A DNA stretch of 32,912 nt from the NCBI GenBank assembly GCA_937866945.1, contig CALMKU010000022.1:1-32912 (forward strand), given 5' to 3'. This document shows positions 19,760-26,655 of the stretch, one piece after another. Below the pieces are notes generated by a model. The model saw only the letters and a program-made list of their open reading frames with translations. It searched no databases and was not told the DNA's origin. Positions within the stretch are counted from its first letter, which is position 1. Each line of letters begins with the position of its first letter. This DNA is from an uncultured Tolumonas sp. (GTDB taxonomy: Bacteria > Pseudomonadota > Gammaproteobacteria > Enterobacterales > Aeromonadaceae). Both the position numbers and the translations under genes were made by a program.

Positions 19760-20968
19760 ATGGAAGCAACAATCAATCCAACCGTTCTGGTTGTTAACTG
19801 TGGCAGTTCATCTCTGAAGTTTGCCATTGTCGATCCGGTAACGGGCGATCAATATCTTACTGGTTTAGCGGAAGCTCTGGGTTTGCCTGAAGCGCAAATC
19901 AGCTGGCGTTTCGGTGAAGATGATAAGAAAAAAGCTGCTTTGCCAGCAGGTGCTAACCACACCGTGGCGTTAACTTATCTTGAAGAGCAAATCCTTGAAG
20001 GTAAGCCTGAGCTGATTAAATCGTTTATCGCTGTTGGTCACCGCGTCGTTTCTGGTGGTGAGTTATTCACCCACCCAACATTGATTACCGATGAAGTAGT
20101 GAAAGGCATCGAGCAATGCATTCCACTGGCACCACTGCATAACCCGGCTCACTTGCTTGGTATTGCTGCTGCTCGCCGTCTCTTCTCCGCTTTGCCTCAC
20201 GTCGCTATTTTTGATACTGCTTTCCACCAGACTATGCCACCTAAAGCGTTCATGTATCCGCTCCCGAACGAGCTTTACACTGAACACGCGATTCGTCGTT
20301 ATGGCGCGCACGGCACCAGTCATTACTATGTCACTACTGAGGCTGCGAAGCTGTTGGGTAAACCAATGTCTGAGACCAATATCATTACTGCGCATTTGGG
20401 TAATGGTGGTTCGGTTAGTGCTATCAAAAATGGTAAATGTGTTGATACCAGTATGGGGCTGACCCCGCTGGAAGGTATCGTAATGGGTACCCGTTGTGGT
20501 GATATCGACCCATCTATCGTGTTCTTCCTGATCGACACTCTGGGTTACACCGTCGAAGACGTGCGTGACACGCTGAACAAAAAATCAGGTCTGCTGGGTC
20601 TGTCTGGCAAAACCAGCGATTTCCGCGGCATCATTGAAGGTGTTGAGCAAGGTGATGAGCAGTGCAAACTGGCGTTTGATATTTTCTGCTATCGTCTGGC
20701 GAAATACATTGCTTCTTACTATGTAGCTGTCGGTAAAGTTGATGCGTTGATCTTCACTGGCGGTATCGGTGAAAACTCACTGCCAATGCGCAGCGCTGTG
20801 CTGAAATTACTGGAAGGCTTCGGGTTTGTTGAAGACGCTACTGCGAATGCGGCTGCTCGTTTCGGTAACTCTGGCCTGATCACTGCGGCTGATAGTACCA
20901 AAGCGTTCGTTATTCCAACTAACGAAGAGCTGGTTATTGCACAAGGTGCTGCTGAGTTTGCTAAGTAA
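19760..20968 (+). CDS. ackA: Acetate kinase
   Basis: AckA interconverts acetyl phosphate + ADP and acetate + ATP, the energy-yielding end of the acetate overflow route. At 402 residues it is normal length. Family signatures are [15 protein letters not shown] near the N-terminus, [11 protein letters not shown], the [11 protein letters not shown] phosphate-binding loop, [20 protein letters not shown], and FTGGIGENS near the C-terminus. GAGGAAAG directly precedes the ATG. In many relatives pta follows ackA. Here a terminator and the opposing cstA gene follow, so phosphotransacetylase must be encoded elsewhere. A 512-base leader region with hairpins and an FNR-like site suggests oxygen-linked or post-transcriptional control. 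Confidence 0.98.
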
Positions 20969-20990
20969 GTTTTAGTGACAGTGACCAATA

Positions 20991-21016
20991 AAAGCGGCCC
21001 GTAATGGGCCGTTTTG
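20991..21016. terminator. Terminator between ackA and cstA
   Basis: CGGCCC pairs with GGGCCG around a 5-nt loop, flanked by AAAA(G) and TTTT. It lies 22 bases after ackA and 19 before the end of the converging cstA gene, and could serve both. Confidence 0.8.
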
Positions 21017-21035
21017 CTATTCAGTGTTTGAATGT

Positions 21036-22856
21036 TTAACTGAGTTGTTCAGCGACTGTTTCAGTGGCGGCAGCACGACGTTGTGCGGGTGATTTGCTCA
21101 ACAGTTCTTTCCATTTCCGCATGGCTGAGATCAGGATGATGATCCCCAGCACCAGCATGATGATAGAGATACAGCCGTTGAAAATGTTGTAACCTTTCGC
21201 TACTGGATTGAAGTAAACGTTTTTGATCATCCAGTAACCGGCATATTGTACGGTCACAAACAGGTAAGCCAGTGGGATCAAACAGGTTAGCGCATAGCGA
21301 CGTTTAGTTGATAACCGCAGGATGATGGTAGTACCGATAATTAAGCCTACGGATGCCATCAGCTGATTAGAAACCCCGAACAGTGCCCATACTGAACCGA
21401 TATCGCCAGACATCAGCAGATAACCCCACATCACACAAGCCAGTACGCTTGCGCCGATAGCGCCGGGCATCCAGTCGATCCGTTTTAGAGGGGAATAGAA
21501 TTCACCAAAGAAATCCTGGATCAGATAGCGCGATACACGAGTGCCTGAGTCAACGGCGGTCAGAATAAATACCGCTTCAAACATCACCACGAACTGGAAA
21601 AAGTAAGAAGCCAGCGTGTTGAACCAGCTGATTTTGGTGAAGATGTAAGACATACCGACTGCCAGTGTTACAGCACCACCAGTACGACCATACAGATCCA
21701 AGCCAATTTCTTTCGACAGTTGTGGCAAATCAACCACATTCATACCCAGACTGGCAAAAGCAGCAGGTGATGAGTTGATCGCGAAATAATCAGCAGGGTG
21801 TAACGCAGTCGCTGCAATCAATGCCATCACACCGACCACACATTCAGCCAGCATGGCACCGAAAGCAACCGGCAGAATATCACTCCATTTATCGACCAAT
21901 TTAGGTGTGGTGCCGGAACCAATAAAGGCATGGAAACCAGAGATTGCGCCACAAGCGATAGTGATAGAGATGAACGGCCATACCGGGCCACCCAGAACCG
22001 GGCCACCGCCATGAATAAATTGAGTCAATGCTGGAAATTGAATTTCAGGGTTGATAAACACCACACCGATAATCAACGCACCAAATACGCCAATTTTCAT
22101 GAAGGAAGAGATGTAACCGCGCGGAGTTAACAGCAACCAAACTGGCAGGGCTGTTGCGAAGAACGCATAGATTGGTAGCGCTAAACTGATCGTGGTTTCG
22201 TGCAGGGTTAGCCAGTCACCGAATACGGTGCCCTGAATGTAAGGACCGAAGAATACGCAGGCCAATACCGCGATAAAACCAACAATCGAGGAGTTTTTCA
22301 GATCGCCAGTGGCTTTGTGATACAAGCCAACCAGCATGGAAATCGGGATGGTCATGAAGACGGCGAACGTGCCCCAGGCATTACGTTCAAGAGCATGAAC
22401 CACCACCATCGATAAACCGGCCATGGTAATAGTGATGATGAACAACATCGCTAAACCAGTACACCAGCCAGCCACTGGGCCCAGTTCCGCTTTCGCGACT
22501 TCCGACAGTGATTTACCCTGATACTTCATGGAAGCAAACAGCACGACAGTGTCGTGTACCGCACCACCAATTACACAACCAATGAGTAACCAGAGGAAGC
22601 TCGGTAGATAGCCGTATTGTGCCGCCAGCACGGGCCCAACCAGTGGGCCTGCAGCCGCAATTGCAGCAAAATGCTGACCGAAGTTAACCCAACGGTTAGT
22701 AGGAACGTAATTTTTACCATCAGCTAACGCATGAGAGGGCGTTACCTGACTGTCATCGGCTTGTAGCACTTTGCGAACAAAGAAAATGCCGTAAAACCGA
22801 TAGCAGATGGCAAGAATACACAGTGCGCTGATGACAAACGTAATCGCATGCGTCAT
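21036..22856 (-). CDS. cstA: CstA-family transporter, probable pyruvate transporter of the BtsSR regulon
   Basis: This 606-residue inner-membrane protein with many helices belongs to the CstA family, whose studied members take up pyruvate (BtsT, CstA) or peptides. Family stretches include NRWVNFGQHFAAIAAAGPLVGPVLAAQYGYLP near the N-terminus, GAISGFHAFIGSGTTPK in the middle, and FGVSNQLMASVGLIIGTT in the C-terminal part. It is shorter than E. coli CstA or BtsT (both about 700 residues). It is encoded directly downstream of btsS-btsR, and BtsR-like direct repeats lie before its -35 region. I therefore infer pyruvate uptake induced by extracellular pyruvate. AGGAG lies 8 bases before the ATG. 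Calling it btsT would be equally defensible. Confidence 0.88.
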   Translation of the reverse strand: MTHAITFVISALCILAICYRFYGIFFVRKVLQADDSQVTPSHALADGKNYVPTNRWVNFGQHFAAIAAAGPLVGPVLAAQYGYLPSFLWLLIGCVIGGAVHDTVVLFASMKYQGKSLSEVAKAELGPVAGWCTGLAMLFIITITMAGLSMVVVHALERNAWGTFAVFMTIPISMLVGLYHKATGDLKNSSIVGFIAVLACVFFGPYIQGTVFGDWLTLHETTISLALPIYAFFATALPVWLLLTPRGYISSFMKIGVFGALIIGVVFINPEIQFPALTQFIHGGGPVLGGPVWPFISITIACGAISGFHAFIGSGTTPKLVDKWSDILPVAFGAMLAECVVGVMALIAATALHPADYFAINSSPAAFASLGMNVVDLPQLSKEIGLDLYGRTGGAVTLAVGMSYIFTKISWFNTLASYFFQFVVMFEAVFILTAVDSGTRVSRYLIQDFFGEFYSPLKRIDWMPGAIGASVLACVMWGYLLMSGDIGSVWALFGVSNQLMASVGLIIGTTIILRLSTKRRYALTCLIPLAYLFVTVQYAGYWMIKNVYFNPVAKGYNIFNGCISIIMLVLGIIILISAMRKWKELLSKSPAQRRAAATETVAEQLS

Positions 22857-22887
22857 GAGTGTTACTCCTGAGTGTAAGTTGATACTG

Positions 22888-22906
22888 CACCAGATCCTTT
22901 CTGGTG
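22888..22906 (-). other. Hairpin in the cstA 5' leader
   Basis: CACCAGA and TCTGGTG form a perfect 7-bp stem with a 5-nt loop between the putative promoter and the cstA ribosome-binding site. There is no T tract; a post-transcriptional role is possible. Confidence 0.4.
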
Positions 22907-22921
22907 TGACAGATTCACCTT

Positions 22922-22951
22922 AGAACAGTGTTTTCAGGAATAACATTTCAA
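22922..22951 (-). promoter_or_regulatory. Probable activator-dependent cstA promoter
   Basis: On the minus strand, TTGAAA (22951-22946) and a poor -10, TGTTCT (22927-22922), are 18 bp apart. A good -35 with a weak -10, 6 bp downstream of the BtsR-like repeats, fits a promoter needing activation. Confidence 0.45.
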
Positions 22952-22957
22952 ATCCAG

Positions 22958-23006
22958 TGAGTGGTTGTATGGCGCAATAAGCGGTCATTATCCGTGATAA
23001 AGCGGT
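22958..23006 (-). promoter_or_regulatory. Three BtsR-like direct repeats upstream of cstA
   Basis: Read on the minus strand, the order is ACCGCTTT (23006-22999), 13 bases, ACCGCTTA (22985-22978), 12 bases, ACCACTCA (22965-22958). The E. coli BtsR (YehT) target, as I recall it, is ACC(G/A)CT(C/T)A repeated in tandem with a 13-base spacer. Two copies match that octamer fully and the third differs only at the last base. The repeats recur at two helical turns on one DNA face, between btsR and cstA. Confidence 0.7.
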
Positions 23007-23014
23007 TTTGCGAT

Positions 23015-23746
23015 TTAGGGGATATTCAGACTCTGTTTGAGTGGTTTCAGATATCGGCGGCTGACCGGAATGCGCTGTTGGGCTCGGGTGATCACTTCCG
23101 CACCGCCATTTTCCAGCAACTGAATTTCGGCCACTTGATCGGGGTTGATCATGTATTGTCGGTGGCAGCGCAAGAACGGTGTTTTTTCCTCTAATGTTCG
23201 CAAGGTCAGTTGTGTGACACCCGCTTGTTTGGCACTGAACACATGTACGCCAGCCAAATCGCTGTGGATATATTCCACTTCGGTCAACGGCACTAAAAAA
23301 ATACGGTTGTGGCCACAACAGGGAATAGAACGTAATGGTGCTAACTCGACTAATGGCTGGTATGACGGTGGCGCTAACTCTTTGCGTAAGCGGCCTAATG
23401 TCTTTTCCAAACGAGCCGGCTCTATGGGTTTCAGCAAATAATCAAACGCATTTTCTTCGAATGCTTTCAGCGCAAATTCATCGTAAGCGGTAATAAAGAC
23501 AATGGCAGGTAAATGTTCTGGGTCAAGCATACTGACCATTTCCAACCCACTGATGCGGGGCATCTGAATATCTAAAAACACCACGTCAGGGCGGAGTTTA
23601 TGGATTGCCGGAATTGCTTCCAGTGCATTACTGCATTCACCGATGATCTCCAGTTCAGCATCGTTTTTCCGCGTATAGCTTTCCAGAATACTACGCAGCT
23701 CTTCTCTGGCTGGTAATTCATCATCGACAATGATCACTCGCAACAT
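23015..23746 (-). CDS. btsR: LytTR-family response regulator (BtsR-like)
   Basis: This 243-residue response regulator has a receiver domain (about 1-120) and a C-terminal LytTR DNA-binding domain (about 140-243). Acidic D8/D9 lie in IIVDDE, the phosphoacceptor is D59 in VVFLDIQMP, the Thr is in FITAYDEF, and the Lys is in LLKPIEP. LytTR features include VEYIHSDLAGVHVF, FLRCHRQYMINPDQVAEI and RIPVSRRYLKPLKQ. Length and gene order match E. coli BtsR. The ATG lies inside the end of btsS (13-bp overlap), so the two are co-translated. It most likely activates cstA through the repeats that follow its own stop codon. Confidence 0.93.
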   Translation of the reverse strand: MLRVIIVDDELPAREELRSILESYTRKNDAELEIIGECSNALEAIPAIHKLRPDVVFLDIQMPRISGLEMVSMLDPEHLPAIVFITAYDEFALKAFEENAFDYLLKPIEPARLEKTLGRLRKELAPPSYQPLVELAPLRSIPCCGHNRIFLVPLTEVEYIHSDLAGVHVFSAKQAGVTQLTLRTLEEKTPFLRCHRQYMINPDQVAEIQLLENGGAEVITRAQQRIPVSRRYLKPLKQSLNIP

Positions 23747-25455
23747 GGTTCAACCTCAGAAAACGGCAAATTAATAATGACCTGAGTGACAATGTCGGGC
23801 TGACACTGCACCTGCACACCGAACTGGTCGCCGTAATGGGCCTTGATGCGGCGATCAACCAGATTCATGCCCAAACCATTACTACTTTCATCTTTATCGG
23901 GCGCAGCAGGGGCATCAAATAAACCAGCATCATCGGCAACAACTAACTGCCAACCGTCATTTTTTCGCTGGCCGGAAATGGTCACGGTGCCACCATTTAT
24001 CGTTTGAGAAATGCCATGCTTTATCGCATTTTCCACAATCGGTTGCAGTGAGAAGGCCGGCAATTTTTGATTCAATAACAAATCGTCGACCTGAAACAAG
24101 ACTTTCAGTCGATCAGGGAAGCGGGCCAATTCGATCTGTAAATAACTGTTTACGTGTTCTAATTCCTCTTTCAGAGTTACTTCCTCGGTACCTCGTCGTA
24201 GATTTTTCCGAAAGAATAACGACAGATGCTGGACAAGTTGCCGTGCATGTTCCGGATCTCGACGTATCACCGAACCCAGCGTGTTTAAGGCGTTAAACAG
24301 AAAATGCGGGTTCACTTGTGCGTGGAGTAATTTGATTTCCGATTGCGCCAACAGCTCGCTTTGGGCGGAATATTTTCCCGCCAGAATTTGTGTGGAAAGC
24401 AATCTTGCCATGCCTTCACCCAAAGTGCGGTTGAGAGAAGAGAAGAGTTTTCTTTTCGGCTCATAGAGTTTGATGGTGCCAATTACTCGATTGTCTTCAC
24501 CGCGTAGTGGTATTACGAGTGTAGAACCCAACTTGCAGTGCGGATCTAACGTGCAGTGATAGCGGATCAGATTGCCATCGGCATACACAACTTCATTATT
24601 TGCGATAGCGCGCAAGGTGTGAGATGAGGTGATGGCTGTACCGGGAAGATGATGGTCTTCACCAATGCCGATAAAGGCGAGCAATTTTTCCCGATCGGTG
24701 AGAGCGACGGCGCCGACATTGGTTTCTTCCAATAAGATCCGTGCTAGTTGCGCGCAATTTTCCTGATTAAAGCCTTTGTTCAATATTCCCATTGAACGCT
24801 CTGCTATTTTTAAGGCGCGGGCAGAGAAAGCGACCGAATATTTTTCATACATGGCGCGACGGTCGAGCAGCATACGCATCAAGATAGCGGCCCCAAAGCT
24901 GTTCGCCAGCATCATCGGTAATGCAATGTTTTGTACCAGATGCCAGGCTTGATCAAACGGACGAGCTAACAGCAGGATGATACCCATTTGCATGAACTCT
25001 GCGACAACGGCGACTGAAAAAACGATCCAGGGGTTAAACAATTGATCTGGCCGTCGACGTTGCAGGAAATAGCGATGCACTAAACCGCCTAACAAACCTT
25101 CAGCGATGGTCGAAATCATACATGCAAAAGAGGTAAAACCACCGAGACTGTAACGATGAACGCCACCGGTTAATCCGACTAGAAAACCGACCACAGGCCC
25201 GCCGACAATTCCTCCAAGTACGGCTCCTGTGGCGCGGGTATTGGCAATCGAATTATCGATTCGGAGGCCAAAATAGGTTCCCATAATGCAAAAGGCGGAA
25301 AAGGTTAAATAACAGAGAATTTTATTTGGCAGACTAATGGTAACTTGAGTGAGTGGCTGAAAAAGTGGTGTTTTACTCAACAGATAGACGATAACCACAT
25401 AGACACACATCTGCTGCAATAACGAGACAATAAGCGTGATTTGTTGAAGGCTCAT
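23734..25455 (-). CDS. btsS: LytS-type sensor histidine kinase (BtsS-like, pyruvate sensor)
   Basis: This 573-residue membrane kinase has an N-terminal 5TMR-LYT multi-helix sensor (about 1-200), a GAF-like domain (about 225-350), and a His-kinase/ATPase part (about 370-565). The phospho-His is in AQVNPHFLFNALNTLGSV. The ATPase has N-box LQPIVENAIKHGI and a glycine box GLGMNLVDRRI. R74, R101, C112 and S115 align two residues after E. coli BtsS R72, R99, C110 and S113, the reported pyruvate-binding residues as I recall them. This supports pyruvate as its ligand. It overlaps btsR. No clear ribosome-binding site precedes the ATG. Confidence 0.92.
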   Translation of the reverse strand: MSLQQITLIVSLLQQMCVYVVIVYLLSKTPLFQPLTQVTISLPNKILCYLTFSAFCIMGTYFGLRIDNSIANTRATGAVLGGIVGGPVVGFLVGLTGGVHRYSLGGFTSFACMISTIAEGLLGGLVHRYFLQRRRPDQLFNPWIVFSVAVVAEFMQMGIILLLARPFDQAWHLVQNIALPMMLANSFGAAILMRMLLDRRAMYEKYSVAFSARALKIAERSMGILNKGFNQENCAQLARILLEETNVGAVALTDREKLLAFIGIGEDHHLPGTAITSSHTLRAIANNEVVYADGNLIRYHCTLDPHCKLGSTLVIPLRGEDNRVIGTIKLYEPKRKLFSSLNRTLGEGMARLLSTQILAGKYSAQSELLAQSEIKLLHAQVNPHFLFNALNTLGSVIRRDPEHARQLVQHLSLFFRKNLRRGTEEVTLKEELEHVNSYLQIELARFPDRLKVLFQVDDLLLNQKLPAFSLQPIVENAIKHGISQTINGGTVTISGQRKNDGWQLVVADDAGLFDAPAAPDKDESSNGLGMNLVDRRIKAHYGDQFGVQVQCQPDIVTQVIINLPFSEVEPCCE

Positions 25456-25572
25456 AATGGTGAGAGGTTCATTTGGTGTGCCCCATTGTAGGGAGAGTTA
25501 AAGTCGTTAACTTTGTACTAGCTCATTTTTTTACAATAAAGCGCTGGAACAGCAAGTTTTAAGGTAAAAAAC

Positions 25573-25600
25573 TTGACCAAAACTCTGTACTTCATAGACT
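25573..25600 (+). promoter_or_regulatory. Probable promoter of the BMP transporter operon
   Basis: TTGACC (25573-25578) and TAGACT (25595-25600) are 16 bp apart, about 50 bases before the binding-protein start. A GCCCG-AAT-CGGGC hairpin (25611-25623) would form at the start of the leader. Confidence 0.4.
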
Positions 25601-25653
25601 TATATATTGTGCCCGAATCGGGCTCAGGCCGATTAACCTGGAAGGATAAGAAG

Positions 25654-26655
25654 ATGAATAAGATTCTGAAAATGGCAGCTGTAGCAACGTTTACTCTGAC
25701 CGCTTTAAGCGCTCACGCTAAAGCGGCAGAACCAGCTGTTATTTACGATACAGCAGGTAAATTTGATAAATCGTTCAACGAAGCCGTTTTCCGTGGTGGT
25801 GTTGAAGAATATAAGAAAGCTAAAAAAATCACCGTTAAAGAATTTGAACCACAAAATGAAGCGCAACGTGAACAGGGTCTGCGTCGTTTAGCCAGTCGTG
25901 GTTATAGCCCGATCGTGGCAGTAGGTTTTAACTTCTCATCCTCTGTAGAAAAAGTTGCGGCTGAATTCCCAAAAATTCAATTTACTATCATCGATTCTGT
26001 GGTTGATAAACCAAATGTGCAATCGGTGGTATTTAAAGAACATGAAGGTTCTTTCCTGGTTGGCGCACTAGCAGCTCAAGCATCTAAAACTGGCAAGGTC
26101 GGTTTCGTTGGCGGTATGGATATTCCGCTGATCCGCAAATTCGAATGTGGCTATGAGCAGGGTGCTAAATATATCAACCCGAAAGCAGAAGTATTCCAGA
26201 ACATGACTGGTTCTACACCTGCTGCGTTTGCTGACCCAGCTAAAGGTGCGGAACTGGCTAAAACCCAATTCTCTAAAGGTGCAGATGTTGTTTATGCTGC
26301 CGCTGGCGGCACCGGTTTAGGCGTTTATCAAGCCGCGAAAGATGCGGGTAAGCTGGCAATCGGTGTTGATTCCAACCAAAACCATTTGCACCCAGGTACT
26401 ATGCTGACCTCAATGGTGAAAAGTGTGGGTTTAGCTGCATTCCAGAGCTGGAATGAATCCGTGCAAGGTAAATGGACTGGCGGTGTGAAAGCACTGGGTT
26501 TGGCTGAAGGTGGTGTAGATTGGGCGCAAGATGAAAATAACGCCAAGCTGATCACGCCGGAAATGAAAACCAAAATGGACAGCATCAAGAAAGATATCAT
26601 CGCGGGTAAAATCAAGATCCACGATTATATGGCTGATAACACCTGTAAATATTGA
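25654..26655 (+). CDS. BMP-family (PnrA/Med-like) periplasmic binding protein of a nucleoside-type ABC importer
   Basis: This 333-residue exported binding protein belongs to the BMP/PnrA family, whose characterised members bind purine nucleosides. A signal peptide (MNKILKMAAVATFTLTALSA then HAKA) precedes the mature AEPAVIYDTAGKFDKSFNE. The D-x-x-G-x-x-D-x-S-F-N segment is the family's first ligand-contact motif. Others are GFNFSSSVEKVA, the GFVGGMDIPLIRKFECGY stretch and IGVDSNQNHLHPG. There is no lipobox, unlike many Gram-positive members. I chose the ATG with AAGGA 7 bases before it; an upstream in-frame ATG would add 27 residues without a signal-peptide start. The ATPase and two permease genes follow. 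Nucleoside is the likely cargo by family. Confidence 0.92.
   Translation: MNKILKMAAVATFTLTALSAHAKAAEPAVIYDTAGKFDKSFNEAVFRGGVEEYKKAKKITVKEFEPQNEAQREQGLRRLASRGYSPIVAVGFNFSSSVEKVAAEFPKIQFTIIDSVVDKPNVQSVVFKEHEGSFLVGALAAQASKTGKVGFVGGMDIPLIRKFECGYEQGAKYINPKAEVFQNMTGSTPAAFADPAKGAELAKTQFSKGADVVYAAAGGTGLGVYQAAKDAGKLAIGVDSNQNHLHPGTMLTSMVKSVGLAAFQSWNESVQGKWTGGVKALGLAEGGVDWAQDENNAKLITPEMKTKMDSIKKDIIAGKIKIHDYMADNTCKY

Follow-up and report, generated by a model that had tools for sequence, protein, structure and literature searches.

Three phased BtsR-like boxes between btsR and a CstA-family transporter gene as a probable BtsR operator in a Tolumonas-like bacterium

In a Tolumonas-like bacterium, three octamers arrayed between btsR and a CstA-family transporter gene are highly likely to form a BtsR operator with its promoter, within a compact pyruvate-sensing locus. 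Three boxes at a phase of 20–21 bp are a common form of the BtsR operator, E. coli btsT included, and the locus illustrates a known circuit well, not a new one. The window, that is, the whole 32,912-bp stretch of DNA that was analysed, belongs to a 2.76-Mb draft genome consisting of 413 contigs. The gene order on its minus strand is btsS (25455–23734), encoding a LytS-type sensor kinase and assigned by sequence and domain profiles; btsR (23746–23015), encoding a response regulator with a LytTR domain and assigned by sequence and a curated model; and cstA (22856–21036), a CstA-family gene for a 606-aa transporter, assigned by sequence and a domain profile. The gap between btsR and the transporter gene is 158 bp long and contains all three octamers. 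An acetate kinase gene on the plus strand (19760–20968) converges on the transporter gene. The Rfam scan of window positions 20000–26000 yielded no family.

All three octamers are read on the minus strand, where the positions and gaps given by the initial annotation were verified. The distal box, ACCGCTTT (22999–23006), agrees with ACCRCTYA in seven of eight positions and is supported by sequence, shuffling and conservation in the genus. The middle box, ACCGCTTA (22978–22985), and the proximal box, ACCACTCA (22958–22965), were identified by sequence and are identical to the middle and proximal boxes of E. coli btsT, respectively. The gaps of 13 and 12 bp correspond to 21 and 20 bp from start to start, and 6 bp separate the proximal box from the hexamer TTGAAA (22951–22946). 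One box had been described as slightly degenerate. One indeed is off consensus, and this is the distal ACCGCTTT, which departs at the last base, given that the other two match the proximal E. coli btsT octamers letter for letter. The BtsR consensus, reportedly derived by Kraxenberger in 2012, is said to comprise two repeats of ACC(G/A)CT(C/T)A with a spacer of about 13 bp. The window has boxes of this form, with about 13 bp between them, upstream of the transporter gene, and the three octamers are very probably bound by BtsR.

A chance resemblance of this intergenic stretch to an operator has one point in its favor: the 7-base motif as such is common, with 24 matches in the window versus 12.2 expected. 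The arrangement of the boxes is far more specific. The sense strand of the 158-bp gap contains three boxes, two phased pairs and one phased triple, and the antisense strand none. Dinucleotide shuffling of the gap, repeated 20,000 times, gave a phased pair on either strand in 28 cases and never a triple. Outside the array the whole window contains neither phased pairs nor a triple, and 100 shuffles of the whole window gave 0.13 phased pairs on average and no triple. Together with the conservation of the array at all ten btsR-bearing loci of the genus and the comparison of loci with and without a neighboring transporter gene described below (17 of 23 vs 0 of 57), these counts reduce the probability of a chance origin to almost nothing; conservation and the latter control refute it.

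The initial annotation took the sensor and the regulator for BtsS and BtsR, and this identification holds. BtsR reaches 372.7 bits with NF008677, the NCBIfam equivalog model for this regulator (cut-off 246), and its receiver (PF00072, 77.3 bits) and LytTR (PF04397, 85.3 bits) domains exceed their cut-offs. It is 58% identical to BtsR from E. coli and 98% and 77% identical to BtsR proteins from Tolumonas sp. metagenome genomes, which places the organism in or close to this genus. BtsS, 62% identical to its E. coli counterpart, contains the 5TM-5TMR_LYT (PF07694, 210.1 bits) and His_kinase (PF06580, 90.5 bits) domains; the GAF models score 25.9 bits (PF13185, cut-off 28.6) and 25.3 bits (PF13492, cut-off 27). 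The consulted part of PMC10653868 names Arg72, Arg99, Cys110 and Ser113 as the pyruvate-binding residues of E. coli BtsS. All four are retained in the window protein, as R74, R101, C112 and S115.

The transporter scores 589.6 bits against the CstA family (PF02554, cut-off 27) and 459.3 bits against the equivalog of E. coli-type CstA (NF011590), which is below the cut-off of 1188. It is 40.3% identical to BtsT and 40.0% to CstA, and these two are 61.6% identical to each other. Orthology to either protein was therefore rejected. The 606-aa transporter is the sole member of the CstA family in each of the seven genus genomes searched, and pyruvate is its likely, predicted cargo. Relatives of this transporter with 81–86% identity (over the part within the locus) adjoin btsSR at five loci, L145, L181, L185, L190 and L215, with record titles naming Formivibrio, Pseudogulbenkiania, Jeongeupia, Mangrovibacter and Azospirillum. 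This distribution suggests a transfer of the btsS-btsR-transporter cassette between classes.

According to the initial annotation, absence of the octamers from related species would have spoken against the site. In fact, the three-box array is located downstream of btsR in all ten genus genomes with a btsR match. A scan for phased pairs recovered both pairs at the locus in nine of these genomes and one pair in the tenth; it detected no such array in the eleventh genus genome, which has no btsR match. The ACCRCT core of the distal box and its phase of 20–21 bp are kept at all ten loci.

Core triples were then sought in 394 whole genomes of the order independently of btsR, and 69 genomes had a match. 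Many of these matches are tandem repeats with a 7- or 10-bp unit; such microsatellites were set aside by eye, leaving 59 sites in 58 genomes. The pattern read backward also matched in about 33 of the 394 genomes (counted by hand, tandem repeats included), and hence the argument is carried by the location of the sites, not by their bare number. For 41 of the sites, btsR or a btsT-type gene is no more than 10 kb away, and 11 of the remaining 18 are just upstream of a CstA-family gene. Seven sites show no visible relation to btsR (G265, G192, G322, G269:C1, G202, G321 and G103). Of the triple-bearing genomes, 55 of 58 are btsR-positive, compared to 178 of 394 overall.

The latter association bears on whether the octamers could be bound by a regulator other than the adjacent BtsR, for instance, by another LytTR protein. 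The genome does encode other response regulators, and binding of BtsR to these boxes is predicted from sequence. However, the arrays track btsR-positive genomes, and the next best match to BtsR in this genome is no more than 30% identical within the initial 144 residues, making a different regulator very unlikely.

A natural control was provided by 80 named loci that were retrieved solely for their similarity to BtsR. In 23 of them a CstA-family gene directly follows btsR; at least two phased boxes were found at 17 of these loci and at least three at ten, six having fewer than two boxes at the threshold used. None of the 57 loci without a CstA-family gene next to btsR has even two phased boxes. 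Judging by record titles, some of the 23 loci are beta- or alphaproteobacterial (for example, Propionivibrio, Formivibrio, Jeongeupia, Azospirillum), and thus this type of operator extends beyond gammaproteobacteria.

For the comparison of promoters, 40 btsR loci were hand-picked from btsR-positive genomes with listed coordinates. Among 70 btsR loci, a CstA-family gene follows btsR in 55; the other 15, having no downstream CstA-family gene within the stretch, were dropped from the box comparison (L018, L048, L049, L054, L061, L064–L072 and L074). The promoter set comprises 91 promoters in 32 genus groups, one genus being divided into its two paralogous loci. Since 13 of the 91 promoters were chosen because they carry triples, separate counts were made for the remaining 78. 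Five enterobacterial btsT starts were set by position only. The group names Aeromonas and Vibrio used below for the compared genomes are presumed.

Distances between boxes on the sense strand of the 91 promoters have maxima at 20/21, 40/41 and 60/61 bp, and the antisense strand has no peak. The best position of a −10-like hexamer is 33–35 nt past the last box in 69 of the 91 promoters, and 25 of the 32 genus groups have one or more such promoters. Following 500 shuffles of the downstream stretch, the hexamer occurred there in 7.9 promoters on average and in 20 at most. Four Aeromonas-type promoters (L020, L024, L027 and L029) were chained on the upstream pair of boxes and are scored as misses in this count.

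The −10-like hexamer of the window, TAAGGT (22917–22922, minus strand), starts 35 nt after the last box and was assigned by the conservation of this offset: TAAGGT, TAAAGT or TAAATT occupies the position at all ten genus loci. TTGAAA, which had been proposed as the −35 box, is retained at only five of the ten loci and ends 23 bp ahead of the conserved hexamer, and on both grounds it was rejected, being unlikely to function as a −35 box. The hexamer located 17 bp ahead of TAAGGT is TGTTAT and does not resemble a −35 box either. Because TTGAAA is misplaced and half-conserved and TGTTAT is not −35-like, the boxes probably replace the −35 box at this promoter. A scan with the σ70 pattern found no promoter at the site, as would fit a promoter lacking a −35 box.

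The closest known system is BtsSR-btsT of E. coli (formerly YehUT-yjiY), which shares with the window the sensor, the regulator, the box sequence, the 20–21 bp phase and the array of three boxes. According to the initial annotation, E. coli has two repeats and the third is an addition in the window. This proved incorrect: the K-12 btsT promoter reads GCCGCTCA-N12-ACCGCTTA-N13-ACCACTCA, with an identically phased third box, and such triplets were found in 13 of the 16 btsT promoters examined from enterobacteria; therefore the third box was not added in the window organism. The oligonucleotide used for surface plasmon resonance on E. coli yjiY includes the third box, as given in the consulted portion of Behr 2016. 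In both promoters the last box is located 35 nt before a −10-like hexamer. The two systems differ in that btsSR (2.21 Mb) and btsT (4.59 Mb) lie far apart in E. coli, whereas the corresponding genes of the window adjoin, and in that the window transporter, 40% identical to BtsT, is 110 residues shorter. Furthermore, a perfect palindrome, which we take to be of the CRP type, is located upstream of the boxes in E. coli. In the window, by contrast, the frequency of CRP-type matches does not exceed the chance level, and the nearest one (23036–23051) has two mismatches.

The distal box of E. coli K-12, GCCGCTCA, is one base off consensus, and three of four other E. coli strains have ACCGCTCA in its place. 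In L038 this box is located at −184 from the btsT start codon, and its first base is polymorphic (A or G). Twelve rows were sampled at regular intervals from the list of 4958 E. coli genomes with a match; five alignments span the whole distal box, six start at its second base (as in K-12), and one starts beyond it, which allows for a rough estimate only.

These variants are relevant to the main rival of the three-box operator, in which only the two proximal boxes work, as in the published two-site description for E. coli, and the distal box is a relic or a weak accessory element. This is a real possibility, although not the one we favor. E. coli btsT has exactly the same two proximal octamers, and the distal box is off consensus at the last base at nine of the ten genus loci (all but L017). 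In E. coli, roughly half of the genomes (6 of 12 sampled rows) seem to have a substitution at the first base of this box, and some groups have two boxes only, such as g4 (7 of 8 promoters). On the other hand, the distal core and phase are kept throughout the ten genus loci, at least three boxes are present in 38 of the 78 promoters not selected for triples, and four to five phased boxes precede the CstA-family gene in L050 and L052 (f6), L155 and L158 (Photobacterium) and L128 (f22).

The initial annotation also presented the compact locus as a novelty. The sensor, regulator, site and transporter do adjoin, but this layout is already known: for both Aeromonas hydrophila and Vibrio harveyi, Behr 2017 (PMC5552118) marks the target gene as lying near those of the two-component system, and most of the 70 btsR loci considered above are arranged in the same way. 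The Aeromonas and Vibrio BtsSR loci thus resemble the window in layout. In that paper the BtsR motif was not identified in A. hydrophila and the E. coli reporter was not induced there, whereas our presumed Aeromonas group has degenerate phased boxes, for example, ACCACTCG, GCCGCTCA and GCCACTGA at 21-bp steps, followed 34 nt further on by the −10-like hexamer TAGAGT.

Operators of other LytTR regulators are built in a similar manner. The consulted text of PMC11347149 describes three direct repeats about two helical turns apart in the operators of the one-component regulators RcoM1 and CoxC, and reports that all three are needed for CoxC; the window likewise has three direct repeats, at 21 and 20 bp. 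However, the RcoM1/CoxC motif, TTCNNGCA / TTNNNGCN, is different, and these are CO-responsive regulators of cox genes, CoxC being a repressor. YpdAB (PyrSR), which controls yhjX, is a pyruvate-responsive LytS/LytTR system with a direct-repeat site, like that of the window. Its repeat is GGCATTTCAT, according to PMC4847170, whereas the regulator of the window scores as BtsR; the same paper states that YpdB fills two sites sequentially and cooperatively. By analogy, BtsR may fill its boxes cooperatively, as YpdB does, or may need all three, as CoxC does.

Under the three-box reading, external pyruvate would be bound by BtsS in its membrane domain, and BtsS would then phosphorylate BtsR. The regulator would occupy all three boxes, which are arranged head to tail at intervals of two helical turns and share a single face of the DNA. 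Since the last box ends 35 bp before TAAGGT, the proximal BtsR would be placed at the upstream edge of the −35 region, from where it could recruit RNA polymerase to a promoter without a usable −35 box and so switch on the downstream transporter gene. BtsR binding, activation, and the roles of pyruvate as signal and as cargo are thus predictions.

The value of the locus is in the comparison it prompted, which revealed a third phased box in K-12 btsT and at least three boxes in about half of the promoters. The new element may be that BtsR operators generally are arrays of up to five phased boxes, as opposed to the two-site description. A statement to this effect was not found in the literature searched, which included neither Kraxenberger 2012 nor the work on Vibrio campbellii. 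As a tentative generalization, with somewhat less than an even chance of being right, the proteobacterial BtsR operator may comprise three to five boxes that share a helical face, being filled head to tail and replacing the −35 box at a fixed distance from the −10 box, the number and quality of boxes setting the pyruvate threshold. If the third box is confirmed, two-site models of pyruvate-induced expression will need a third BtsR site, and natural variants of it, with either A or G as the initial base of the distal box, already exist in E. coli strains.

A fourth octamer, a perfect ACCACTCA, is located at the 3'-end of btsR (23045–23038, minus strand). Were it a true site, the operator would comprise four boxes and reach into the btsR coding region, which we consider improbable. 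It is kept at six of the ten genus loci (L001, L009–L012 and L014), and the position reads ACCGCTTA at L013. However, it falls on the conserved codons of Lys-Pro-Leu-Lys (KPLK), has no full match in L015, L016 and L017, and is 39, 40, 41 or 70 bp from the next box, depending on the locus; moreover, this proline is encoded by CCC or CCT at Aeromonas-type loci. The octamer was therefore rejected as a member of the array and is probably a by-product of the KPLK codons, which explain it best, as relatives keep the peptide and not the octamer.

Phased pairs besides the cstA array occur in ten of the 11 genus genomes (all but G068). Those in the window genome (C259, C260 and C179) are inside coding frames and were rejected as targets. 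In four genomes (L101–L104 in G071–G074), a conserved phased pair is located in a short gap between two reading frames; it was not called a BtsR target because G072 has the pair but no btsR match. At contig ends of two f19 genomes (L131 and L121), a 21-bp repeat with ACCACT mimics the BtsR phase; neither btsR nor a CstA-family gene was found at these ends.

The cstA leader contains AGGAG (22865–22869, minus strand), the likely ribosome-binding site judging by sequence. Ahead of it is a hairpin, CACCAGA-AAGGA-TCTGGTG (22888–22906, minus strand), with a 7-bp stem and an AAGGA loop; it resembles what we presume to be a CsrA site and may be one. The loop GGA is absent in L014 and shifted in L016, and the fold of the single sequence is not unusual. 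All seven pairs are kept in nine genus sequences, one pair showing a compensatory change. In E. coli, cstA and btsT are both named as under CsrA control in PMC7730263.
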